Shown: in pieces, positions 52,215 through 64,000 of the stretch | Numbering within the stretch: position 1 is the stretch's first letter | Layout: every line of letters begins with the position of its first letter | From: Niveispirillum irakense DSM 11586 | GTDB lineage: Bacteria > Pseudomonadota > Alphaproteobacteria > Azospirillales > Azospirillaceae | Direction: 5' to 3' | Assembly (NCBI RefSeq): GCF_000429645.1 | Contig: NZ_KE386933.1 | Location: 124,001 to 188,000, forward strand | DNA: 64,000 nt | Made by a program: the position numbers and the translations under genes | Notes under the pieces: model-generated | Seen by the model: only the letters and a program-made list of their open reading frames with translations | What the model was told of the DNA's origin: nothing | Databases searched by the model: none

Positions 52215-55103
52215 GTGGGTGTGAAGAGCGGTGCGAAGGCGGATTGGCCGGAAGCGGACAAGGGGGCTGCGGTGGCACCCGCGCGCGTACCGTTGCGCAA
52301 GCGCCTGTCGTTCAAACAGGCGCGCAACACGGCTTTGCTGACGCTTGCTCTGGGTTTTGTGGTCAGCACGGCCCAGATCAGCATCGACCTGCTGGATATG
52401 GAAAAACAGTCTGACCAACTGATCCATCAGGTTCTTTCCACCCTGCGGGAACCGGCGGCGGAAGCCGCTTACTCCTTTGATCAGGCCCTGGCCGACCGGG
52501 TAGTGACCGGCCTTTTTGAATATCGTCCCGTTTATCGCGCCGTGATCCTGGAGGATTTCGGCAACCAGCTTGCCGCCCGCGAACGACCGCAAATCGAGGG
52601 TGGGTTGAAATGGCTGATTGAGATCCTGCTGCCGGCTGAGCGGACCTTCTCCATCCCCCTGGTCATTGAGCGCAACAATCAGAATGTGGGGGAGCTGCGC
52701 GTCAGCGTCGACCGTCTGATCATCGCGCAGGAATTTTTCCGCCGGTCCGGTCTGGTGCTGACCACCGGCATCATCTGGACACTGGGGCTGGCGCTGATCC
52801 TGGTGGTGATGTTCTATTCCACCATCACCAAACCCTTCCTGCGCATGTCATCCGCCATCGCGGAAGTGGACCCGGCCCGGCCGGCGGCCCGGCTGCTGCA
52901 GGTGCCGGATCGCCATCATGATGACGAGCTGGGGCTGCTGGCCAACACGACCAACGCGCTGCTGGTCCAGTTCGACCATTCGCTGGTGGAGCGCGGGCGC
53001 GCTGAACAGGCGCTGCGGGAGCGGGAAACCCGCCTGTCAGGGATCATGGATAATGTCGCCGACGGCATCATCACCCTGGATGAGGATCTGCGGATCGAAA
53101 CCATGAATGCCGCCGCCCTGCAACTGTTCGGCTATGAACGGGAAGCGGCGGTGGGCCAGCCCTTTGTGACGCTGATTGAGGAGCGGGACTGGACCCGTGT
53201 TGCCGTGGCGCTGATGGCCTGCCTGCGCCGGGGGGACGAGGAACAGCGCCCTGAAAACCGGGCTGAAATTCAGGGACGCCGCCGCCATGGCGAGATTTTC
53301 GCCATGGCCTTCGGCGTCAGCCAGATGCGGCTGGGCGAACGTCGCACCGCCATCTGCGTGGTGCAGGACATCACCCAGCGCAAGCGGGGCGAGCAGGCGC
53401 TGCGCGAAAGCGAGGAACGGCTGAAGCTTGCCGTGCGTGCCACCCGTTCCGGCGTGTTCGACAATAATTATGTCAAGGACACCTACTGGTGGAGCCCGGA
53501 ATTCATTGAAATGCTGGGATATGAGCCGGTGGATGCCCTGCTGGCGAACAAGCTGTTCGACGGCCTGATCCATCCCGATGACAAGGAGAACACGCAGAGC
53601 CAGATCAACCGCTACCTCCAGGGGGAGGTGGGCGATTATCTGTCGGTCTACCGGCTGCGCCATCGCGATGGAAGCTGGGTCTGGATCGAGGCGCGCGGCC
53701 AGGCCATCCGTGATGACCATGGCCGGCCGCTACGCTTCACCGGCACCATGACGGACGTGACTGACCGCAAGCGGTTTGAAGAACAGCTTATGTATGTCAG
53801 CACACATGATCCGCTGACCGGGCTGCCCAACCGGACGCTGGTGCAGGACCGGCTGGAACATGCGCTGGCCCATGCCAGCCGCAAGGGCACCACGGTGGCC
53901 GTCCTGCTGCTGGATGTCGACCGTTTCAAGCTGGTCAATGACAGTCTGGGCCATCAGGTGGGGGACAAGCTGCTGCGTGCCATCGCACAGCGCCTGGGTG
54001 CCTGTGTGCGCGGCACCGACACGGTGGGCCGCCTGGGGGCGGACGAATATCTGGTGGTCGCGGAAGACCTGTCCGACCCGCAGATGGCTGGCCGTGTGGC
54101 GGAGACGATCCTGGTCGGCCTGTCCCGTCCGTTCGGCGTTGACGGGCAGCAGCTTTTTGTCACCTGTTCCATCGGGATCAGCCTGTTCCCCGGTGATGGG
54201 CAGGATATCCATGCCCTGATGCGCGATGCCGATACCGCCATGCACAATGCCAAGGCGGCGGGCGGTAACGGCTATCGCTTTTTCACGCCTGAAATGAACG
54301 AGGCCGCCGTGGCGCGGCTGTCGCTGGAGCGGTCCATGCGGGAGGCCCTGGATCAGGGTCAGTTCTTCCTGCATTACCAGCCCAAGATCGATATGCAGAC
54401 CATGCGCGCCGTGGGTGTGGAGGCGCTTTTGCGCTGGCAGCATCCGGAGATCGGCATGATCTCCCCGGCCAAGTTCATTCCCGTCGCGGAGGAGACCGGG
54501 CTGATCGTGCCCTTAGGCGACTGGGTGATGCGGGCGGCCCTGGCGCAGATCCGCGACTGGCAGAGCCGTGGTTTCGCGCCCATCCCGGTGGCGGTGAATG
54601 TTTCGGTCCGGCAGATCACCCTGCCGCAATTCGGTGAAAGGGTTGTGGCCCTGTGCCAGGAATATGGCGTGCGCCATGACCTGCTGGAGATCGAGATCAC
54701 TGAAACGGCGATGATGTCCAATCTCGCCTATATCGTTGATACTTTGACGGATCTCCGCAACCACGGCTTCCGCATCGCCATTGATGATTTCGGCACGGGC
54801 TACTCCTCCCTCTCCTATTTGCGGCGCTTGCCCATCACGACGCTGAAGGTGGACCGCTCCTTCGTCAGCGAGGCGCCGACCAATGCCGATACCGGGGCCA
54901 TCGCCGCCACCATCATTGCCATGGGCCGCCAGCTTGGCCTGAAAGTGGTGGCGGAAGGGATCGAGACGGAGGAGCAACTGGAATTCCTGCGGGCCCATCA
55001 TTGCGATGAGATGCAGGGTTACTATTTCTCCCGCCCCCTGCCGGCCGGTGATCTGGAATCCCGTTTCCTGCGGCGTCAGGACCTGCTGCTTCCGGCCGGT
55101 TGA
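52215..55103 (+). CDS. Membrane PAS-GGDEF-EAL cyclic-di-GMP protein
   Basis: A 962-residue protein. TM1 (about residues 36-54), a periplasmic sensor, TM2 (GLVLTTGIIWTLGLALILVV), HAMP, two PAS domains (IMDNVADGIITLDEDL and VRATRSGVFDNNYVKDTYWW), then GGDEF and EAL. The GGDEF motif reads G608-A-D-E-Y612 and is degenerate, so cyclase activity is doubtful. The EAL domain looks complete: EALLRW at 736-741, VNVSVRQ, EIEITETAMM, AIDDFGTGYSS, LKVDRSFV and AEGIETEEQ. Net activity is probably c-di-GMP hydrolysis. The start is GTG 52215 (or GTG 52221). It lies upstream of the four-gene envelope cluster in the same direction. Confidence 0.93.
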   Translation: MGVKSGAKADWPEADKGAAVAPARVPLRKRLSFKQARNTALLTLALGFVVSTAQISIDLLDMEKQSDQLIHQVLSTLREPAAEAAYSFDQALADRVVTGLFEYRPVYRAVILEDFGNQLAARERPQIEGGLKWLIEILLPAERTFSIPLVIERNNQNVGELRVSVDRLIIAQEFFRRSGLVLTTGIIWTLGLALILVVMFYSTITKPFLRMSSAIAEVDPARPAARLLQVPDRHHDDELGLLANTTNALLVQFDHSLVERGRAEQALRERETRLSGIMDNVADGIITLDEDLRIETMNAAALQLFGYEREAAVGQPFVTLIEERDWTRVAVALMACLRRGDEEQRPENRAEIQGRRRHGEIFAMAFGVSQMRLGERRTAICVVQDITQRKRGEQALRESEERLKLAVRATRSGVFDNNYVKDTYWWSPEFIEMLGYEPVDALLANKLFDGLIHPDDKENTQSQINRYLQGEVGDYLSVYRLRHRDGSWVWIEARGQAIRDDHGRPLRFTGTMTDVTDRKRFEEQLMYVSTHDPLTGLPNRTLVQDRLEHALAHASRKGTTVAVLLLDVDRFKLVNDSLGHQVGDKLLRAIAQRLGACVRGTDTVGRLGADEYLVVAEDLSDPQMAGRVAETILVGLSRPFGVDGQQLFVTCSIGISLFPGDGQDIHALMRDADTAMHNAKAAGGNGYRFFTPEMNEAAVARLSLERSMREALDQGQFFLHYQPKIDMQTMRAVGVEALLRWQHPEIGMISPAKFIPVAEETGLIVPLGDWVMRAALAQIRDWQSRGFAPIPVAVNVSVRQITLPQFGERVVALCQEYGVRHDLLEIEITETAMMSNLAYIVDTLTDLRNHGFRIAIDDFGTGYSSLSYLRRLPITTLKVDRSFVSEAPTNADTGAIAATIIAMGRQLGLKVVAEGIETEEQLEFLRAHHCDEMQGYYFSRPLPAGDLESRFLRRQDLLLPAG

Positions 55104-55497
55104 TCGGCCAGGAAAGGGATCTGCCGGGGGGCGAATCGGGGGCCTGTCTCCCGTTGCCCTGCCGCAAAGGTTGACGTAGACGTCACAAGGCTTTTCCCCT
55201 TCAGCGTATCCCGCAAGTGCAAAAACACCCTCATGTCCTTCGCGCCTGCACAACAAACGACCGTTTGAATGCACTGCTGACTAAATGCGCAAACCGTTGG
55301 AAAAAGGCCAAAAATCGTGTCTTTTTTGCCAATGTGCGGATCAAACGCTTCGCCGCGTGTTTTCCGTTGCATAGAAGCCTTGACGCTTCCACATGGCGGA
55401 TTTTTACTCGGATTCGCACTTCCCCGCGCGCTCCCCAAGTGCCGGTCAACCGGCAAGCCGGGGGAAGAAAAAGAATTGGGATGCGAGGAGGAAACGC
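55104..55497 (+). other. 394-bp gap upstream of the DUF1302 gene
   Basis: No gene supported. It contains the palindrome TGACGT-AG-ACGTCA at 55172-55185, a candidate operator, and an AT-richer part around 55285-55330. It presumably carries the promoter of the four-gene envelope cluster. No terminator of the upstream GGDEF/EAL gene was recognised. Confidence 0.45.
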
Positions 55498-57681
55498 ATG
55501 GCACGGAAATCGACGCCGCAGGCGCGCCTGGATCGACGCATATTGGCCGGCGTCAGTGCCGCGGCCATTTTGACGCCACTGATGATGGCGGCCCCGGCGG
55601 CGGCTGCGACGTTCAATCGGGGTGATCTCAGTGGCAGTTTCGATACGACCCTGACTGTCGGGGCCCTGTTCCGTGTGCAGGACCGTGACCCGGACCTGAT
55701 CGGTGTGGCAAATGGCGGTCGGGCCCATTCGATCAATGGCGATAACGGCAATCTGAATTACGGCAAGGGCCTGGTTTCACTGGCCGGACGCGCCACGCAC
55801 GAGTTGAAGCTGAATTACGGCAATCTCGGCGCCTTCGTCCGTGGCACCTATTTCTACGATGTGGTGAACGCCAAGAAATCCAGCAGCAGTTTCGGCCGCA
55901 CCAACCGTTTTGCGCTGTCCGATGATGCGCAGGAACGGGTGGGGCGTGATTTCGACCTGCTGGATGCCTTCGTCTATGGCAATTTCGCGGTTGGTGACAG
56001 CAGCTCCATTGACGTGCGCCTGGGTAACCAGGTGTTAAGCTGGGGCGAAAGCACCTTCATCCAGAACGGTATCAACACGATCAACCCCGTCGACGTGTCG
56101 GCCCTGCGCGTGCCGGGCTCCGAACTGCGCGAGGCATTCCTGCCCGTCCCGATCGCCGACGTGAACATCTCCTTCAACCAGAATTTCTCGATGGAGGCGT
56201 TCTATCAGTTCGGCTGGAAGAGAACGGAGCCGGAGGCAGCCAATTCCTTCTTCTCCACCAATGATTTCGCCTCGCCGGGTGGCGACCATCTGTTTATCGG
56301 CTTCGGTAACTATCTGTTCACCGACAGCCGTAATCAGGGTGCAGTGGCCGGCGGCAATGTCTTCCCGACCAATCTTTACCCAGATCCCAAGCTGAATGGC
56401 TTCCGGGGGGTGCAGTCGCTGACTCCGTTCGGTACCGTGGTGCCGCGTGTGGATGATGACAAGCCCAGCGATACGGGCCAGTATGGCTTTGCCGCCCGCT
56501 ATTTCGCCGAAAATCTCGGCAATACGGAGTTTGGCGCCTATTTCATCAACTACCATTCCCGTCTGCCGGTGCTGAGCGGCTTCGTGGCGCCGCTGCCGCA
56601 ATTCCTGTCAAACACCACCCGCTTCACCGATTTCAGCGGTTATCGCGCGGAATATCCGGAAGATATCAAGCTGTTCGGCGGTAGCTTCAATACCAACATC
56701 TTCGGCGTTTCCCTGCAGGGTGAGGTCAGCTTCCGCAAGGACCAGCCTTTGGCGCTGGATGATGTGGAACTGTTGCAGGCCACCCTTGCTGCCCCCACCA
56801 TCCTCGGCTTGGTTACCCAGGGCCAGACGGCGGGCAGTGCCTCCTTCGATCAGGCCGTGGCGCGTGCCGTTGCGTCAAACCCGGCGCTGGCTGTCTTCAC
56901 TGGTCGCACGTTTGAGCAGATCCAGGCGGCCAGCCCGGCGGCTGCCGGTGCCATCAGCGCCGGTATCGCCGCTGCCGCGGGCTCTCCCGGCGGCACCCGT
57001 GCGGCCTTTGTCACGGCCGGGGCCAATAGTGCCGCCAACCAGGGCGCGGCCCTGTTCAACACCAATCAGGTCGTGCGCGATCTGGGCGGCATCAAGGGCA
57101 ATACGGCCGCTACCATCCAGCAGGATCTGGCTACCAACTGGTTTGGCCGCCGTATCCAGGGCTGGAAGGAACATGACGTTACCCAGGCGCAGATGACCGC
57201 CACCAAGGCGTTCGAGCGTGCGTTCGGTGCCGACCAGTGGGTGCTGGTATCGGAAGTGGGTGGCACCTGGATCCACAATATGCCGGGCAAGAGCGAGATG
57301 CGCTATGAAGGCCCCGGCACCTTTGTTGGCGGCAATGCCGCCTTCCTGGGCCGTGGCGGCATGGCGGATGTGGCGACGGATGGTTTCGCCGATCCCTTCT
57401 CCTGGGGTTATCGCGTCGCGGCGCGCTTCGATTATCTGAACGCGCTGCCGGGCATCAACCTGTTCCCCAGCATCTCCTGGCAGCATGACGTGAATGGTAC
57501 CACGCCGTCGCCGCTGGGCAATTTTGTGGAAGGCCGCAAGGCCGTCAGCCTGGGCCTGCGCGCCGTGGTGCGCGAGACGGTCACGATCGACCTCTCCTAT
57601 TCCAACTTCTTCGGGGCAGGAGCCTACAACCTGATCAATGATCGCGACTTCGTGTCGGCCAGCGTCAAATATTCTTTCTAA
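55498..57681 (+). CDS. DUF1302 outer-membrane protein
   Basis: A 727-residue protein. A signal peptide (hydrophobic AGVSAAAILTPLMMAAPAAA) is followed by alternating beta strands of an outer-membrane barrel (DVRLGNQVLSWGEST, GYRAEYPEDIKLFGG, VEGRKAVSLGLRAVVR) and a C-terminal strand ending in SVKYSF with the terminal Phe used for BAM recognition. GQVLSWGES-like and GYRAEYPEDI blocks are the DUF1302 signature. An Ala/Gly-rich low-complexity insert (about residues 440-530) interrupts the barrel pattern. Start at 55498 after GAGGAGGAAACGC; the next gene has the same leader. Likely first gene of a four-gene cluster. Confidence 0.9.
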   Translation: MARKSTPQARLDRRILAGVSAAAILTPLMMAAPAAAATFNRGDLSGSFDTTLTVGALFRVQDRDPDLIGVANGGRAHSINGDNGNLNYGKGLVSLAGRATHELKLNYGNLGAFVRGTYFYDVVNAKKSSSSFGRTNRFALSDDAQERVGRDFDLLDAFVYGNFAVGDSSSIDVRLGNQVLSWGESTFIQNGINTINPVDVSALRVPGSELREAFLPVPIADVNISFNQNFSMEAFYQFGWKRTEPEAANSFFSTNDFASPGGDHLFIGFGNYLFTDSRNQGAVAGGNVFPTNLYPDPKLNGFRGVQSLTPFGTVVPRVDDDKPSDTGQYGFAARYFAENLGNTEFGAYFINYHSRLPVLSGFVAPLPQFLSNTTRFTDFSGYRAEYPEDIKLFGGSFNTNIFGVSLQGEVSFRKDQPLALDDVELLQATLAAPTILGLVTQGQTAGSASFDQAVARAVASNPALAVFTGRTFEQIQAASPAAAGAISAGIAAAAGSPGGTRAAFVTAGANSAANQGAALFNTNQVVRDLGGIKGNTAATIQQDLATNWFGRRIQGWKEHDVTQAQMTATKAFERAFGADQWVLVSEVGGTWIHNMPGKSEMRYEGPGTFVGGNAAFLGRGGMADVATDGFADPFSWGYRVAARFDYLNALPGINLFPSISWQHDVNGTTPSPLGNFVEGRKAVSLGLRAVVRETVTIDLSYSNFFGAGAYNLINDRDFVSASVKYSF

Positions 57682-57723
57682 TAAACGCCGCGCAAGACGG
57701 AAGAGCGACCGAGGAGGAAACGT

Positions 57724-59061
57724 ATGTTCAGTATGAAAGCAGCTTTGTTGGGCAGCGCCCTTGCCATTGGCCTGGCGCTTCCCGCCATGGCCCAGACGGC
57801 CGATGATCTGGGCAAGACGCTGACCCCGATGGGTGCCATCAAGGCCGGTAACGCCGATGGGTCCATTCCGGAATGGACCGGTGGCATTACCAAGCCGCCG
57901 GCAAGCTGGAAGCCAGGAACGATCGAGACCGATCCGTTCCCCGATGACAAGGTGCAGTTCACCATCACCGCCGCCAACATGGCGCAGTATGAGGCGAAGC
58001 TGCCGGAAGGGCTGAAGGCCCTGCTGAAGCAGTATCCCTCCTACAAGATGAATGTTTATCCGACCCGCCGCAGCGCGTCGGTTCCCCAGCGCATCTATGA
58101 TGAGACAATGGCCAACGCCAAGCGGGCCAAGCTGGTGGATGGCGGCAATGGTGTGGAAGGCGCCAAGGAAGGCGTGCCCTTCCCGATCCCCAAGGAAGGG
58201 GTGGAAGCGGTCTGGAACCATCTGCTGCGTTATCGCGGTAACGCGACGGAGCGTATGGTCGGCCAGGCCAACCCGCAGACCAATGGCAGCTACACCCTGA
58301 TCATGCTCAGTGAGAAGGTGAAGTATCTCTATGGCGCGCCGGGTGGCACCAACTCCAACAACTCGCTCTACTTCCTGCAGGAAGTGACCAGCCCGGCCCG
58401 TCTGGCCGGTGAAATCCTGCTGGTGCATGAGACGATCAATCAGGTGAAGGAGCCGCGCTCCGCCTGGACCTACAATCCCGGCCAGCGCCGCGTGCGCCGT
58501 GCGCCCAATGTCGCCTATGACAATCCGGGCACGGCGTCGGACGGTCTGCGCACCACCGACAATTTCGACATCTATTCCGGCGCGCCCGACCGGTATGACT
58601 GGAAGCTGGTCGGTCGCCAGGAAATGTATGTTCCTTACAACGGCTACAAGCTCCACTCCAAAGACACGAAGTACGACGACATCATCAAGCCGGGCCATAT
58701 CAACCAGGATCTGGCCCGGTATGAGTTGCACCGCGTCTGGGTGGTGGAAGCCACGCTGAAGCAGGGCACCAGCCACATCTATGCCAAGCGCCGCTTCTAT
58801 ATTGACGAGGATAGCTGGCAGATCCTGGTTGCCGACCATCTGGACGCGCGCGGCCAGATGTGGCGCGTGGCTGAAAGCCATGGTGTGAACTATTATTCGG
58901 TGCCGGCCTACTGGTCGACGCTGGATGCGCTCTATGATCTCCAGTCCGGCCGTTACACTGTGCTGGGTCTGGACAACCAGGAAGCGCCTTACAAGTTCGA
59001 CGCCCAGTTCTCTGACGCGGACTTCTCTCCCGACAGCCTGCGTCGGGCCGGCGTGCGCTGA
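57724..59061 (+). CDS. DUF1329 periplasmic protein
   Basis: A 445-residue protein with a clean signal peptide (MKAALLGSALAIGLALPAMA then QTAD). DUF1329 signatures are seen: GAIKAGNADGSIPEWTGGI, FTITAANMAQYEAKL, EGVEAVWNHLLRYRGN, AWTYNPGQRRVRRAPNVAYD and RRFYIDEDSWQIL. DUF1329 proteins are predicted to have a LolB/LolA-like lipid-binding fold, which suits shuttling a hydrophobic molecule across the periplasm. It follows the DUF1302 gene by 42 bp with an identical GAGGAGGAAACG ribosome site. Confidence 0.92.
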   Translation: MFSMKAALLGSALAIGLALPAMAQTADDLGKTLTPMGAIKAGNADGSIPEWTGGITKPPASWKPGTIETDPFPDDKVQFTITAANMAQYEAKLPEGLKALLKQYPSYKMNVYPTRRSASVPQRIYDETMANAKRAKLVDGGNGVEGAKEGVPFPIPKEGVEAVWNHLLRYRGNATERMVGQANPQTNGSYTLIMLSEKVKYLYGAPGGTNSNNSLYFLQEVTSPARLAGEILLVHETINQVKEPRSAWTYNPGQRRVRRAPNVAYDNPGTASDGLRTTDNFDIYSGAPDRYDWKLVGRQEMYVPYNGYKLHSKDTKYDDIIKPGHINQDLARYELHRVWVVEATLKQGTSHIYAKRRFYIDEDSWQILVADHLDARGQMWRVAESHGVNYYSVPAYWSTLDALYDLQSGRYTVLGLDNQEAPYKFDAQFSDADFSPDSLRRAGVR

Positions 59062-59143
59062 TATCTGGATGGCAGGGGGCCGGCCTGAGGGCCGGCCCCT
59101 TTGCCGTCCCTGGCCTTTTCCTTTGATTCTCGTATAGGTCAAG

Positions 59144-60100
59144 ATGATCGTGCAAGCGTCCGCCCGGATCGCCGCAGCCCTTCTCCTGGCCGCCGGCCTC
59201 CCCGTTTCCGCGCTGGCGCAGACGCCGGCGCCTTCCATGCGGCCTGCCATCATGGCACCGCTGGCGAGCCACTCCCTGGTTCTGGCGGCCACCCGCGCTG
59301 GCGATCGGCTGGTCGCGGTGGGGGAGCGGGGGCATATCCTGCTTTCCGATGATAATGGCACCACCTGGCGTCAGGTGCCGTCCCCGGCCAATGCTGCTCT
59401 GACCGGCGTCACGTTCGTTGACGCACGGCACGGATGGGCTGTCGGCCATGATGCCGTGATCCTGCACACCCAGGATGGCGGTGAGACCTGGACGCTTCAG
59501 CATGCTGAACCCGAACTGGAACAGCCGCTGATGGATGTGCTGTTCACCGATGCCAGTAACGGCATCGCTGTCGGCGCCTATGGGCTGTATCTGGAAACCA
59601 CCGATGGCGGCGCCACCTGGACACCACGCACCGTCAGCGAGGATGATTTCCATTTCAATGCCGTGCTGGCCCCTACGCCTGAGACGCGGCTGATTGCGGG
59701 GGAGGCGGGGACGCTGCTGTTCAGTGCCGATGCCGGTACTACCTGGACGGCGCTGGAAAGCCCCTATGACGGTTCTTTCTTCGATGCGCTGGTGCTGGGG
59801 CCGCAGAGTTTCCTGGTTTATGGGCTGCAAGGCCATATCTTCCGCACCGATGATGCCGGTGCCACCTGGACTGAAATTGATAGCGGCGGCACGGCGGGCC
59901 TGATGGGCGGGGCCGTGCTGACCGATGGCGGCGTCATGCTGGTCGGTGCGCAAGGCACGATCCTGACCAGCCGCGATGGCGGGCACAGTTTCAGTGCGAC
60001 CCGTCGGCCTGACCGTGTTGGTCTGGCCGATATCGTCCAGGCTGCCAATGGCGGTCTCATCCTTCTCGGGGAGGCGGGGCCGATACCGGCCAATCCCTGA
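59144..60100 (+). CDS. YCF48-type beta-propeller (BNR-like) exported protein
   Basis: A 318-residue protein with a signal peptide (AAALLLAAGLPVSALAQ). Several sialidase-like repeats are seen: GHILLSDDNGTTWRQV, AVILHTQDGGETWTL, GLYLETTDGGATWTP, TLLFSADAGTTWTAL and HIFRTDDAGATWTEI, forming a six- or seven-bladed propeller. It resembles the YCF48/HCF136 assembly-factor group. Its place between the DUF1329 and RND genes suggests it assembles or scaffolds the pump (inference). AGGTCAAG precedes the ATG. Confidence 0.9.
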   Translation: MIVQASARIAAALLLAAGLPVSALAQTPAPSMRPAIMAPLASHSLVLAATRAGDRLVAVGERGHILLSDDNGTTWRQVPSPANAALTGVTFVDARHGWAVGHDAVILHTQDGGETWTLQHAEPELEQPLMDVLFTDASNGIAVGAYGLYLETTDGGATWTPRTVSEDDFHFNAVLAPTPETRLIAGEAGTLLFSADAGTTWTALESPYDGSFFDALVLGPQSFLVYGLQGHIFRTDDAGATWTEIDSGGTAGLMGGAVLTDGGVMLVGAQGTILTSRDGGHSFSATRRPDRVGLADIVQAANGGLILLGEAGPIPANP

Positions 60101-60175
60101 CACAAGGCCGGGCGCGATCCTGATCCGCGCCGACCGTAACCCGCCTGACCCTACCGTTTCCCGAGGTGCCCGGAC

Positions 60176-62548
60176 ATGTCCCAATCCCCGTCCCTTCCTT
60201 CCCGGCTTGAATATTGGACCTTCCGTCACCGGGGGCTGGTGCTGGTGATCTTTGCGCTGCTGACCCTGTTCATGGGCTGGCAGGGGGCGAAGCTGCGTGT
60301 CGATGCGGGGTTTGAAAAGACGCTGCCGCTCGAACATCCCTATATGCAGACCTTCACCAAACATATGAAGGAGTTCGGCGGCGCCAACCGGGTGCTGGTG
60401 GCCCTGTCGGTGAAGGAAGGCGATATCTACACGCCGGAATTCATGACCCGGCTGAAGCAGGTGACGGATGCGGTCTTCTTCGTGCCCGGCGTGGACCGGG
60501 CCAGTGTGACCAGCCTCTTCACCCCGAATGTGCGCTTCATTGAGATTGTGGAGGATGGGTTTGCCGGCGGCAATGTCATCCCGGCGGAATTCCAGCCCAA
60601 TGACCAATGGCTGCCGATCGTCCGTGAGAATGTGCTGAAATCCGGACAGGTCGGCCGGCTGGTGGCAGAGGATTTCACCGCAGCATTGGTCAGCGTGCAA
60701 CTGGTGGAAACCGACCCGCGTACCGGCGAAAAGCTGGACTATATGCAAGTCGCGCAGCAGTTGGAGGATATCCGCGCCAAGTTCGAGGATGAGCGCATCC
60801 AGGTCCATATCATCGGCTTTGCCAAGGCCATGGGCGATATCGCGGATGGCGCCAAAAGCGTGGTGATGTTCTTCGCCATCGCCTTCGTCATCACGGCGGT
60901 GCTGGTCTATGGCTATGGCAAAAGCTGGATGATGACCTTTGCCATGCTGGGCATCTCGCTCTGCACCGTGATCTGGCAGTTCGGCCTGCTGGTGTTGCTG
61001 GGCTATGGCATTGATCCGCTGTCCATCCTGGTGCCGTTCCTGGTATTTGCCATCGCCATTTCCCATGGCGTGCAGAATATCGGCACCATGACGCAGGAAA
61101 TCAGCAAGGGTGCGGATGCAACAACGGCAGCCCGTATCAGCTTTGAACGTCTGCTGATCCCTGGCGGGTCGGCGCTGATCACCGATGCGCTGGCCTTCGT
61201 CACCATCGCCATCATCCAGATCCAGATGATCCAGGAACTGGCGGTCTCCGCCTCCGTGGGCATGCTGATCATCATCATCACCCATCTCTGGATCCTGCCT
61301 GTCGTCCTCTCCTATCTGCCGCTGGGCGACAAATATCGCAGCCGTGTGGAAGGGCAGGTGGGCCGTTTCGACAAGGTATGGAGCCGGATGGCGATTTTCG
61401 CCCGGCCAAAAGGCGCCATCGCCATGATCCTGGTGGCCCTGGTCGTGCTGGGTGTTTCCTTCTACGAACAGCGCAACATGACGGTGGGCGATACGGAGGC
61501 CGGCGTGCCGGAACTCTGGCCGGACAGCCGCTATAATCTGGATGCGCAACTGATCGTCGACCGGTTCGCCATTGGCGTGGATATCATCCAGGTCATTGCC
61601 GAAACCAAGGCTGATGGCTGTATCGATTACGGCATCATCAAACAGATCGATGATTTCACCTGGGCCATGACCAATGTGCCCGGCGTGCAATCCACCATAT
61701 CCATGGCCACGGCCATGAAGGTGGTGAATACGGGCTGGAACGAAGGCAACCTGAACTGGCGCGTTCTGCCCCGCAACAGCCAGGTGCTGGTGCGCACGGT
61801 CACGCCGATTGAGACTTCCACCGGCCTGTTGAACTCCAACTGCTCCGTCATGCCCGTGGTGATCTACACCAAGGACCATAAGGCGGGCACCATCCAGGGC
61901 ATCGTTGATGCGGTGGAGGCCTATAACAAGGCCAACCCGTCGGAAACGGTGCAGTTCAAGCTGGCGACCGGCAATGTCGGCGTCATGGCCGCCACGAACG
62001 AGGCGGTGATGACGGCGGAAAAGCCGATGCTGCTGCTGGTCTATGCCACGGTGATCCTGTTCTGCGCCCTGACCTTCCGGTCCCTGGTTGGCTCCCTGGC
62101 CACGGTGCTGCCGCTGATCGTCGTGTCGATCCTGTGCAACGCCATGATGGCGTGGCTGGGCATCGGGTTGAAGATTTCCACACTGCCGGCGGCGGCGCTG
62201 GGCGTGGGGATCGGTGTGGATTACGGCCTTTACATCTTCAACCGGCTGCAGAGCTATCTGAAGCATGGGTTGAGTTTCGCGGATGCCTATTACCGCACCT
62301 TGCAGGAAACCGGCAGCTCGGTCCTGTTCACCGGCCTGACCCTGGCCGTGGGTACGGCGACCTGGATTTTCTCTGACCTGAAATTCCAGGCCGATATGGG
62401 CGTATTGCTGACCTTCATCTTCCTGGCCAACATGATCGGCGCCATCGTGCTGCTGCCAGCGGTGGCGGCCCTGCTGTACAAGCTGTTCCCGAAGCTGTTC
62501 GAAGCGGAGGTCAAGCGCGCCTCCAAGCGGACCTTCGCGGCGCATTGA
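60176..62548 (+). CDS. RND superfamily (MMPL-type) transporter
   Basis: A 790-residue inner-membrane protein with about 12 membrane helices in two halves: TM1 (LVLVIFALLTLFMGW), a large periplasmic loop, a six-helix block (AIAFVITAVLVYGYG onward), then a repeat (GAIAMILVALVVLGVSF, loop, and helices from LLLVYATVILFCAL). FLVFAIAISHGVQN and GVGIGVDYGLYIFN carry the helix-4/10-like motifs with acidic residues that relay protons in MMPL/RND pumps. MMPL-type pumps move lipids, hopanoids and similar hydrophobic molecules. No membrane-fusion protein is encoded nearby; the DUF1302/1329 partners may replace it. It is the last gene of the cluster, before a terminator. Confidence 0.93.
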   Translation: MSQSPSLPSRLEYWTFRHRGLVLVIFALLTLFMGWQGAKLRVDAGFEKTLPLEHPYMQTFTKHMKEFGGANRVLVALSVKEGDIYTPEFMTRLKQVTDAVFFVPGVDRASVTSLFTPNVRFIEIVEDGFAGGNVIPAEFQPNDQWLPIVRENVLKSGQVGRLVAEDFTAALVSVQLVETDPRTGEKLDYMQVAQQLEDIRAKFEDERIQVHIIGFAKAMGDIADGAKSVVMFFAIAFVITAVLVYGYGKSWMMTFAMLGISLCTVIWQFGLLVLLGYGIDPLSILVPFLVFAIAISHGVQNIGTMTQEISKGADATTAARISFERLLIPGGSALITDALAFVTIAIIQIQMIQELAVSASVGMLIIIITHLWILPVVLSYLPLGDKYRSRVEGQVGRFDKVWSRMAIFARPKGAIAMILVALVVLGVSFYEQRNMTVGDTEAGVPELWPDSRYNLDAQLIVDRFAIGVDIIQVIAETKADGCIDYGIIKQIDDFTWAMTNVPGVQSTISMATAMKVVNTGWNEGNLNWRVLPRNSQVLVRTVTPIETSTGLLNSNCSVMPVVIYTKDHKAGTIQGIVDAVEAYNKANPSETVQFKLATGNVGVMAATNEAVMTAEKPMLLLVYATVILFCALTFRSLVGSLATVLPLIVVSILCNAMMAWLGIGLKISTLPAAALGVGIGVDYGLYIFNRLQSYLKHGLSFADAYYRTLQETGSSVLFTGLTLAVGTATWIFSDLKFQADMGVLLTFIFLANMIGAIVLLPAVAALLYKLFPKLFEAEVKRASKRTFAAH

Positions 62549-62603
62549 GGGGAGAGGGCCTGCCTTTCCGGCAAGGGAAAGGCAGGTCCGATGCCGGCAT
62601 GAA

Positions 62604-62640
62604 AAAGGCCGCGGAGGGTGCATCCTCCGCGGCCTTTCTT
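62604..62640 (+). terminator. Terminator of the four-gene envelope cluster
   Basis: A 14-bp perfect stem (62604-62617 / 62624-62637), preceded by A-rich and followed by TTTCTTTT-type sequence. It starts 56 bp after the RND stop. Confidence 0.9.
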
Positions 62641-62766: not shown

Positions 62767-64000
62767 TCAGTAGGTGAATTTGATCCGGGCGTTGAAGGCA
62801 TGGTCGCTGGGGGAACCGCCCTCAATCCGGCCATCATAGCCGATGCCGATCATCACATTGTCATCCGCCACCATGGCCACGGATGTGCTGATGGCAAAAC
62901 GGCCGCGCTTGCCCGCACCCGCTTCGCCACGGGCTTGTTCAAGATTGGCGAAGCGACCGGTCACCTCGCGCCCGTCATTGTTGAATTCATGCTCATACGC
63001 CAGGCGCATATGCGGGATGAAACTGTGGCCATACCCGCTGAGCTGGACACCAGCCATGCCCACCAGGCTCTTGGCTTCCCAATCATCCCAGGTCAGCGCC
63101 AGGGGACCGCCGCCCTGCTCGGCATAGCCTTCGATCCGGGTCTGGGCATAGCGCAGGCCGAAGACCGGACCCATGCCGAAGCTGCCCATGTCCGGCGTAT
63201 AGCCGACCGTACCACCCGCACCATAGGTCGTGCCCTTGGTGCTGCCACCGGCGGTGGCGTAGGGGCCGAACCGGGTCTGGCGGGACAGGTCATAATCATC
63301 GAAGCTCAGGGACAGATAGCCATCCATCCACAATTCCCGCGATGCGGCGGCGGTGAAATAGGCCGTCACATTATAGGCCTTGGCATCCACCGACCCCATC
63401 TTGCCGTCCGTGGAGCTATCCGCCTTGCCATAGGAAAAGGCGAGGCCGGCGGTGACCTTGTCATCCACCTGATAATCCGCGCCGATGCCGGCATTGAAGC
63501 CGTCATACTTATAGCCCATGCGGCCCGTCGTGGCATCGCGCTCGCCATCCAGATAGGTGCCGAAGCCGTAGATCCCGACCCTGCCATCGGCGCCGGCCTG
63601 GGCAGCGGTGATATTCACCGACCCCTGGCCGCTGCGGGCGCCGGCCATGCGGGAGGCGATGCCCTGGTTGGCCAGATCGTACAGGCGCTGCGAGATTTCC
63701 GTGGCCGTGGCATTGATGGCCGGTGCTTCAAACGTGGCGGACAGGGTGCCATCCACAAACTGCCCGACAATGGCATGGGCGGCGGCTGTGGGGTGCAGCG
63801 GGTCGAAGAAGACGGTGCTGGCCGCACCCGCCGCCGTGGCGCAGGCTCCCGTCGCCACCGTGGACCCGCCAGGACCGACCGGGGCAATGCAGGGGATGGT
63901 GGCGTTGGCCAGGCCATAGGTCTGGGGTGAGGCCAGCAGATCGCGGAACAGGGCATTCACATCCACGACCGTTGCCGACATCCCATTTTCCCGCAGCCCC
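62767..64000 (-). CDS. GDSL/SGNH-type autotransporter esterase (5' end outside window)
   Basis: The frame is open to the window edge (an internal Met codon lies at 63981), giving the last 411 codons. The visible passenger end has the SGNH block V FFDPLHPTAAAH with the catalytic Asp-x-x-His. Then a linker and an autotransporter beta-barrel follow: GIYGFGTYLDGERDATTGRM, FNAGIGADYQVDDKVTAGLA, and a final strand ARIKFTY ending in aromatic Tyr. Similar proteins (EstA-like) display a lipase/esterase on the cell surface. The GDSL serine would lie upstream, outside the window. Convergent to the RND gene. Confidence 0.92.
   Translation of the reverse strand, partial: GLRENGMSATVVDVNALFRDLLASPQTYGLANATIPCIAPVGPGGSTVATGACATAAGAASTVFFDPLHPTAAAHAIVGQFVDGTLSATFEAPAINATATEISQRLYDLANQGIASRMAGARSGQGSVNITAAQAGADGRVGIYGFGTYLDGERDATTGRMGYKYDGFNAGIGADYQVDDKVTAGLAFSYGKADSSTDGKMGSVDAKAYNVTAYFTAAASRELWMDGYLSLSFDDYDLSRQTRFGPYATAGGSTKGTTYGAGGTVGYTPDMGSFGMGPVFGLRYAQTRIEGYAEQGGGPLALTWDDWEAKSLVGMAGVQLSGYGHSFIPHMRLAYEHEFNNDGREVTGRFANLEQARGEAGAGKRGRFAISTSVAMVADDNVMIGIGYDGRIEGGSPSDHAFNARIKFTY

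Follow-up and report, generated by a model that had tools for sequence, protein, structure and literature searches.

Four adjacent genes of Niveispirillum irakense DSM 11586 encode a predicted outer-membrane barrel of family DUF1302, a DUF1329 protein, a YCF48-type propeller and an MMPL/RND pump (A, B, C and D hereafter; Table 1), and they raise the question of which hydrophobic molecule is handled and in which direction it crosses the envelope. The genes lie in a stretch of 64,000 nt (the window; positions 124001-188000 of contig NZ_KE386933.1, C1 below) of a 5.45 Mb genome. In families and gene order, as read from the sequence, the cluster is a further AmeABCD-type system, a kind already published for Castellaniella defragrans (PMC6394551; statements about published systems refer throughout to excerpts of the papers cited). 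From the gene content and order, the families, the predicted folds of A and B and the co-occurrence described below, we infer the cargo, the direction and the roles of C and D, and we put at about even the chance that the system serves net uptake or handling of hydrophobic growth substrates.

Co-occurrence and arrangement of the four families

A phylum-wide sample of 150 genomes from 88 genera was searched with A, B, C and D, at expectation values (E) up to 1e-80 for D and up to 1e-20 for B and C. B, C and D were found in exactly the same 16 genomes, spread over 12 genera, and A was found in these 16 and in three more (G162 and G234, both with weak matches, and G179). The chance of such co-occurrence was calculated at ~7e-22 and ~7e-19 with genomes treated as independent, which overstates it. 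Among 80 related loci, 23 carry A-B-C-D in order on one strand, 25 have an A-B pair whose flank lacks C and D, 23 have B and C-D in divergent orientation and lack A in the flank, and nine end early at contig ends. The split sets are completed from other sites of the same genomes. A full-length D was found elsewhere in all 15 genomes tested that have the A-B pair, and exactly one A match was found elsewhere in all 12 tested of the Idiomarina-type genomes with divergent B and C-D (partial in G109), so that the missing partner was present in 27/27; the seven divergent-type genomes searched for D each had exactly one. The four families are a real unit, and with 23 ordered loci among the 80 the arrangement A-B-C-D is more than chance; an earlier note made from the sequence of the window had claimed that the cluster type recurs.

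Within the window's own family, 82 genomes taken as Azospirillaceae (a label inferred, Niveispirillum belonging to that family), 41 have A, 69 B and 34 D, and both A and B were present in every genome with D. Seven of the 41 genomes with A lack D at threshold; two of these have a weak A (G039 and G056) and one is a fragmented assembly in which a contig end may be the cause (G067), the other four being considered below. Genomes of genus g3 in this family commonly have a solitary DUF1329 gene (~345 bits) and neither A nor D.

Copy numbers of the inner and outer components

In each genome at most 8 A, 12 B, 6 D and 14 C candidates were scored, and some copy counts may therefore be lower bounds; in the case of D, further candidates lay beyond those scored in 10 of the 16 positive genomes. 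The number of C equals the number of D in all 16 positive genomes, and B outnumbers D in 11 of them, with counts that are partly lower bounds. One C and one D are accompanied in G164 by at least 8 A and by 9 B, and in G188 a single run (C3:10773-22224) reads A-B-B-A-B-C-D, that is, two barrels and three carriers for one pump. In RND efflux many pumps share one channel and specificity lies in the pump, while TonB systems have their specificity at the outer membrane. The many outer components per pump, by this analogy, suggest that specificity may lie at the outer membrane, as in TonB systems, rather than in the pump. A tentative and somewhat unlikely extension is an energised importer on the TonB plan, in which one C-D engine would serve many A-B receptor pairs with different hydrophobic cargoes, the RND pump driving fatty acids, terpenes or aromatics inward and being fed by surface lipases or esterases.

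Gene organisation and predicted proteins

Table 1. Features of the cluster and its flanks, in positions of the window.
Feature	Position	Strand	Basis or remark
PAS-GGDEF-EAL cyclic-di-GMP protein, conserved upstream neighbour	52215..55103	+	Pfam
A, DUF1302 predicted outer-membrane barrel with signal-peptide-like N terminus (AmeA-like)	55498..57681	+	727 aa; Pfam PF06980, 600.8 bits
Mostly alpha-helical insert of A, residues 422-547	56761..57138	+	Helices in the A model
B, DUF1329 predicted periplasmic LolA/LolB-fold protein (AmeB-like)	57724..59061	+	445 aa; Pfam PF07044, 540 bits
C, putative secreted YCF48/BNR beta-propeller (AmeC-like)	59144..60100	+	318 aa; Pfam PF14870 (PSII_BNR/YCF48), 107.1 bits
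D, MMPL/RND predicted inner-membrane pump (AmeD-like)	60176..62548	+	790 aa; Pfam PF03176, 85.1 bits
Terminator region, two strong hairpins, T-rich tail on the second	62556..62589 and 62604..62637	+	
GDSL esterase autotransporter, convergent neighbour, extends past the window end	62767..64000 (whole gene L083:768-2630)	-	Pfam Autotransporter and Lipase_GDSL

The one-direction layout with gaps of 42, 82 and 75 bp (A-B, B-C and C-D) that the earlier note had described was recovered from the coordinates of the open reading frames, and all four Pfam matches lie above the curated cut-offs. The frame of A is open upstream to an ATG at 55393; the start at 55498 is preceded by a strong ribosome site and gives an N terminus that resembles a signal peptide. 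An identical strong site, CGAGGAGGAAACG, stands one base before the ATG of both A and B, and the sites of C and D are weaker. Export was judged by hydropathy only, rather than by a signal-peptide program: A, B and C each have a single hydrophobic segment, which is N-terminal and agrees with the signal peptides claimed earlier, and D has 13 hydrophobic 19-mers, partly overlapping, consistent with the claimed ~12 helices. Downstream of D, nt 62549-62650 fold at -65.2 kcal/mol against -40.5 (standard deviation 3.6) for shuffled sequences (z -6.9), and CTTTT follows within a few bases 3′ of the second hairpin, in keeping with the strong terminator previously noted there; the consensus terminator scanner listed neither hairpin. 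A and B each have one match in the host genome, and so do C and D at the stricter thresholds used for the phylum-wide search. The nearest named relatives of the cluster are Niveispirillum and Azospirillum sp. RU38E loci, with B 88-89% identical.

For alignment, proteins shorter than 60% or longer than 140% of the window protein were dropped, and 46 of 54 A, 45 of 80 B, 21 of 45 D and 23 of 46 C loci were aligned besides the window. The model of A built on this alignment (predicted local distance difference test, pLDDT, 83; predicted template modelling score, pTM, 0.79) has barrel strands. Its best solved matches are OprD/Occ channels, at Z ~23 over ~305 residues, with OpdQ/OccK2 at Z 23.2 (root-mean-square deviation 3.1 over 306 residues, 9% identity), and Foldseek likewise placed Occ channels at the top, AlgE and further porins following closely. 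The likeness is one of fold: the Pfam scan gave no sequence-family match to OprD, and a sequence search of A against solved structures gave no match. A is predicted to be a porin-like barrel of outer-membrane type near the OprD/Occ channels, as the earlier assignment to an outer-membrane barrel would have it. The stretch between residues 421 and 555 measures 135 aa in the window, 102-159 aa in five other rows of the window's own group (L003, L005, L008, L010 and L011), 70 aa in L058 and 24-50 aa in the remaining 40 of the 46 relatives. The helical insert within it, which is alanine-rich (33 of 126 residues), probably lies in an extracellular loop of the model, because strands counted back from the C terminus place it outside the cell.

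DUF1302 was the only family matched by A in Pfam; PF03349 was not matched, and A is not a FadL/Toluene_X barrel. Replacement of a missing FadL by A was considered and set aside. A FadL match over the cut-off is lacking in 15 of the 38 family genomes with a strong A versus 9 of the 44 others (the weak A of G024, G039 and G056 being placed with the others and the sub-threshold FadL of G049 counted as lacking), and this is only suggestive because the 15 genomes lie in three genera (g1, g2 and g11) and the host genome has both barrels.

The model of B (pLDDT 90, pTM 0.90) contains a LolA/LolB-type domain from about residue 155 onward, the first 150 residues being barely tested. Its Z is 22.3 to 9tp6 (LolA3 of Porphyromonas gingivalis) and 20.4 to the DUF1329 structure 4z48, so that the LolB-like fold attributed to DUF1329 is reproduced. 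A LolA_like match of 51.4 bits against a cut-off of 30 places B in the LolA superfamily. The single sequence of B found no solved structure at E 0.01; its profile reached one LolA-type chain at E 0.0013 and, more weakly, five others at E 0.09 to 0.57.

The solved relatives of C found by sequence search are YCF48 proteins (best E 1.3e-21), and a photosystem YCF48 role was rejected (NCBIfam PRK13684, 104.2 bits versus a cut-off of 326). The best NCBIfam match of D is TIGR00921 (HAE3), at 168.7 bits below the cut-off of 351.9; assignment as the hopanoid exporter HpnN was rejected (TIGR03480, 54.1 bits versus 751.85). S296-H297 and D682-Y683 of D are invariant in 22/22 aligned rows, and D682-Y683 aligns with an Asp-Tyr pair of MmpL5, which we take from work on MmpL proteins to be a proton relay; the conserved residues of D would fit a working relay. 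None of the four proteins matches a membrane-fusion protein family in Pfam, consistent with the earlier remark that the usual fusion protein is absent, and a tripartite HAE1 RND efflux pump was rejected, A, B and C matching no membrane-fusion or TolC-type family there.

Neighbouring genes

The GDSL esterase autotransporter convergent with D has the GDS, GGND and DxxH motifs, and it possibly supplies cargo to the system. In the window's family, proteins of its cluster are convergent with the system and at most two genes away from it at 11 of 18 loci, and the GGDEF-EAL protein cluster lies directly upstream of A at 14 of 19; L114 to L119, which repeat L003, L009, L004, L008, L005 and L010, were not counted again. 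The PAS-GGDEF-EAL protein keeps its place before A in several genera and may link the system to cyclic-di-GMP regulation; as a regulator it was not counted as support, since in L121 a similar gene lies beyond D and has another domain set (GAF).

Neighbouring genes named here as lipase-like, thiolase, dehydrogenase or GMC were grouped by BLAST, with Pfam run on part of the members only, and neighbour gene calls were made partly by a simple codon-composition rule. In 15 of the 41 loci outside the window's family that have more than 2.3 kb upstream, A is immediately preceded by a large lipase-like gene; most of these 15 loci are of Marinobacter type, and the rest include Lysobacteraceae, Oceanospirillaceae and other gammaproteobacteria. 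The distance to A is 10-133 bp in 14 of these loci and 604 bp in L064, where start calls are doubtful. A simple motif scan found a lipobox in 13 of the 15 genes, and GxSxG occurs in eight, not always at the likely active site; Lipase_bact_N was matched by six of the seven genes scanned (L019, L036, L025, L027, L075 and L039).

Complete beta-oxidation sets are found beside the cluster in two distant genomes. In L022, from a gammaproteobacterial metagenome-assembled genome, acyl-CoA dehydrogenase, thiolase and 3-hydroxyacyl-CoA dehydrogenase/hydratase genes lie directly before A and an AMP-binding gene of acyl-CoA ligase type directly after D. In L129, from the window's family, ligase, thiolase, hydroxyacyl-CoA dehydrogenase, acyl-CoA dehydrogenase, A, B, C, D and a chemoreceptor follow one another in one direction. 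Among the three nearest neighbours on either side, thiolase-type genes occur in 10 loci (three confirmed by Pfam) and acyl-CoA-dehydrogenase-type genes in seven (two confirmed), counts that stand without a random-gene baseline. No clear lipid-synthesis gene was seen among the part of the neighbours that was scanned with Pfam.

Other arrangements were observed. In genome G062, a B gene at L125 (G062:C15) ends a row of beta-oxidation type, the three genes before it clustering with the thiolase, hydroxyacyl-CoA dehydrogenase and acyl-CoA dehydrogenase of L129 (c37-c39, Pfam on L129 only), and L126 (G062:C1) is an A, C, D cluster with no B between A and C. Second DUF1329 genes adjoin an enoyl-CoA-hydratase-type gene in L120, L122, L128 and L131 (Pfam on L128 and L122 only), and in L120, L128 and L131 they also lie near a PrkA/DUF444/SpoVR set. 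In 19 of the 23 divergent Idiomarina-type loci (L040-L082; Pfam on L040 only) a GMC-oxidoreductase-type gene is found close to where D ends.

Direction and cargo

On the uptake or handling reading, the neighbouring esterase would free at the cell surface a fatty-acyl or similar hydrophobic compound, the most likely cargo in this lineage. A would be a substrate-selective barrel admitting hydrophobic molecules met from outside, B a LolA-like carrier ferrying the molecule through the periplasm, C a propeller acting as fixed partner of D, and D a proton-driven RND protein exchanging cargo with the inner membrane; net movement would most likely be inward, followed by acyl activation and beta-oxidation. 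Handling, and probably uptake, is favoured because surface lipase or esterase genes lie nearby, because beta-oxidation sets stand beside the cluster and because copies of A and B exceed those of C and D in several genomes. Uptake or substrate use is also favoured because the Pseudomonas putida homologues PP_0765, PP_0766, PP_2018 and PP_2019 are reported to be required for use of Tween 20 (PMC10866462) and deletion of a Delftia DUF1329 gene to impair growth on phenanthrene (cited second-hand in PMC13101534). The inner-to-outer-membrane direction given in the earlier note was an assumption, and uptake or handling of hydrophobic growth substrates accounts no less well for the neighbourhoods and copy numbers.

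Several points weigh against uptake or handling. RND pumps of known direction mostly move cargo outward, and the catabolic neighbours also fit a detoxifying exporter. Conservation of the esterase and GGDEF-EAL genes may reflect common descent, because other flanking genes (c6, c7 and c9) are kept too. The lipase-like gene of L053 has no Pfam match and that of L039 is barely over the cut-off, and the equal count of C and D in G142 depends on weak C matches and an at-least count of D. The FadL of the host genome (PF03349 match, C1:879955-881226) makes an alternative acyl route possible. G014, G023, G025 and G034 have a strong A match and no D, and 28 of the 82 family genomes have B without A or D (one, G057, by a weak match); thus B, and sometimes A, has another life apart from the system in the window's family. 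Limonene above 5 mM inhibited the C. defragrans deletion mutant even when acetate was supplied, and de-energised cells of the mutant took up slightly more Nile Red, both of which the authors of that study ascribe to efflux (PMC6394551).

Efflux for tolerance, with D taking toxic hydrophobics from the inner membrane or periplasm, B and C replacing the membrane-fusion protein and A as exit channel, is possible, if on balance unlikely. It is how the AmeABCD authors read the Nile Red result and the weaker growth of their mutant on limonene (PMC6394551), it agrees with a regulon study that places the four families in regulons for aromatic compounds and proposes that they cope with toxic aromatics and solvent stress (PMC6449761), and D is an RND protein whose Asp-Tyr pair aligns with one of MmpL5. 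However, real-time Nile Red efflux was almost identical in mutant and wild type, and the mutant supplied with acetate grew like the wild type at limonene up to 5 mM (PMC6394551), as expected if the mutant had lost a carbon supply. Efflux would also not need the surface lipases and beta-oxidation genes alongside, and the many copies of A and B per D in several genomes are the reverse of the RND efflux pattern. The C. defragrans data cut both ways: the acetate rescue and the normal growth reported on oxidised monoterpenes fit poor supply, and the inhibition at high dose and the Nile Red uptake fit efflux (PMC6394551). A third reading, in which a lipid of the cell's own making is moved from the inner membrane to the outer one in the manner of MmpL and Lol/Lpt systems, would suit the LolA-type fold of B, the MMPL family of D and the barrel of A, yet we consider it improbable: the scanned neighbours offer no clear lipid-synthesis gene, the system is patchy (16/150 genomes), unlike a core envelope pathway, and the phenotypes in the published excerpts concern growth on outside substrates. 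Slightly less probable still, in our view, is a part in assembling or releasing outer-membrane enzymes or vesicles (nanopods), with indirect effects on substrates. DUF1302 proteins were reported from outer-membrane and nanopod samples of Delftia and a DUF1329 protein from its nanopods (PMC3110197), and surface lipase genes lie alongside, but the adjoining beta-oxidation genes speak for a direct concern with the substrate.

Comparison with known systems

The earlier statement that the cluster type has no settled substrate is fair, but the type has already been named and partly characterised as AmeABCD (PMC6394551). In that system, as in the window, the four families stand in the same order on one strand. 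AmeA is a DUF1302 outer-membrane protein with a signal peptide, AmeB belongs to DUF1329 and the LolA superfamily, AmeC to COG4447/YCF48, and AmeD is a 12-helix RND pump of HAE3 type; D is likened to it here as an RND protein whose best, sub-threshold match is HAE3, by family description rather than by direct sequence comparison or a tree. Conserved four-gene cassettes were described there in other bacteria. Unlike the cluster in the window, with its GGDEF-EAL and GDSL esterase flanks, AmeABCD sits in a monoterpene island (PMC6394551). Searches of the open-licence literature found no later functional study of AmeABCD, and a search there on steroid uptake and a combined one on Tween 20 found nothing. 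No printed source was found there for the exact phylum-wide co-occurrence, the completion of split sets, the excess of B (in some genomes of A) over C and D, or the lipase and beta-oxidation neighbours; the conserved four-gene cassette itself is in print (PMC6394551).

The P. putida set resembles that of the window in comprising a DUF1302 protein, a DUF1329 protein, a periplasmic protein and an efflux-type transporter; by locus numbers its genes form two separate pairs, whereas all four are contiguous in the window, and of the contacts predicted among its proteins two were called weak and one strong (PMC10866462). The highly expressed, benzene-linked 'Nanopod' cluster of the benzene degrader ORM2a (Desulfobacterota) likewise has DUF1329, YCF48-related and MMPL proteins and a protein most resembling a porin, together with extra genes unlike the window, among them one for a universal stress protein (PMC13101534). 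DUF1302 and DUF1329 genes also adjoin phenol-hydroxylase genes (PMC7012976). Like D, the hopanoid transporter HpnN is an RND pump; it is of HAE3 type, the best but sub-threshold match of D, and moves hydrophobic cargo, and unlike D it is described as working without such partners (PMC6394551).

Passage of hydrophobic nutrients across the periplasm is poorly understood, and FadL has been called the sole protein known to take up long-chain fatty acids in Gram-negative bacteria (PMC9496633). In Vibrio cholerae the lipase VolA (vca0863) releases fatty acids for FadL-type importers such as vca0862 (PMC9496633, PMC12208996), so that a surface lipase gene stands, by locus numbers, beside the gene of a fatty-acid uptake barrel. 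This compares with the cluster in manner of working only: FadL is of another barrel family than A, and the excerpts of those papers mention no C or D partner. Were A-B-C-D a second route beside FadL, and an energised one, two DUF families would gain functions and an RND pump would be seen to run inward.

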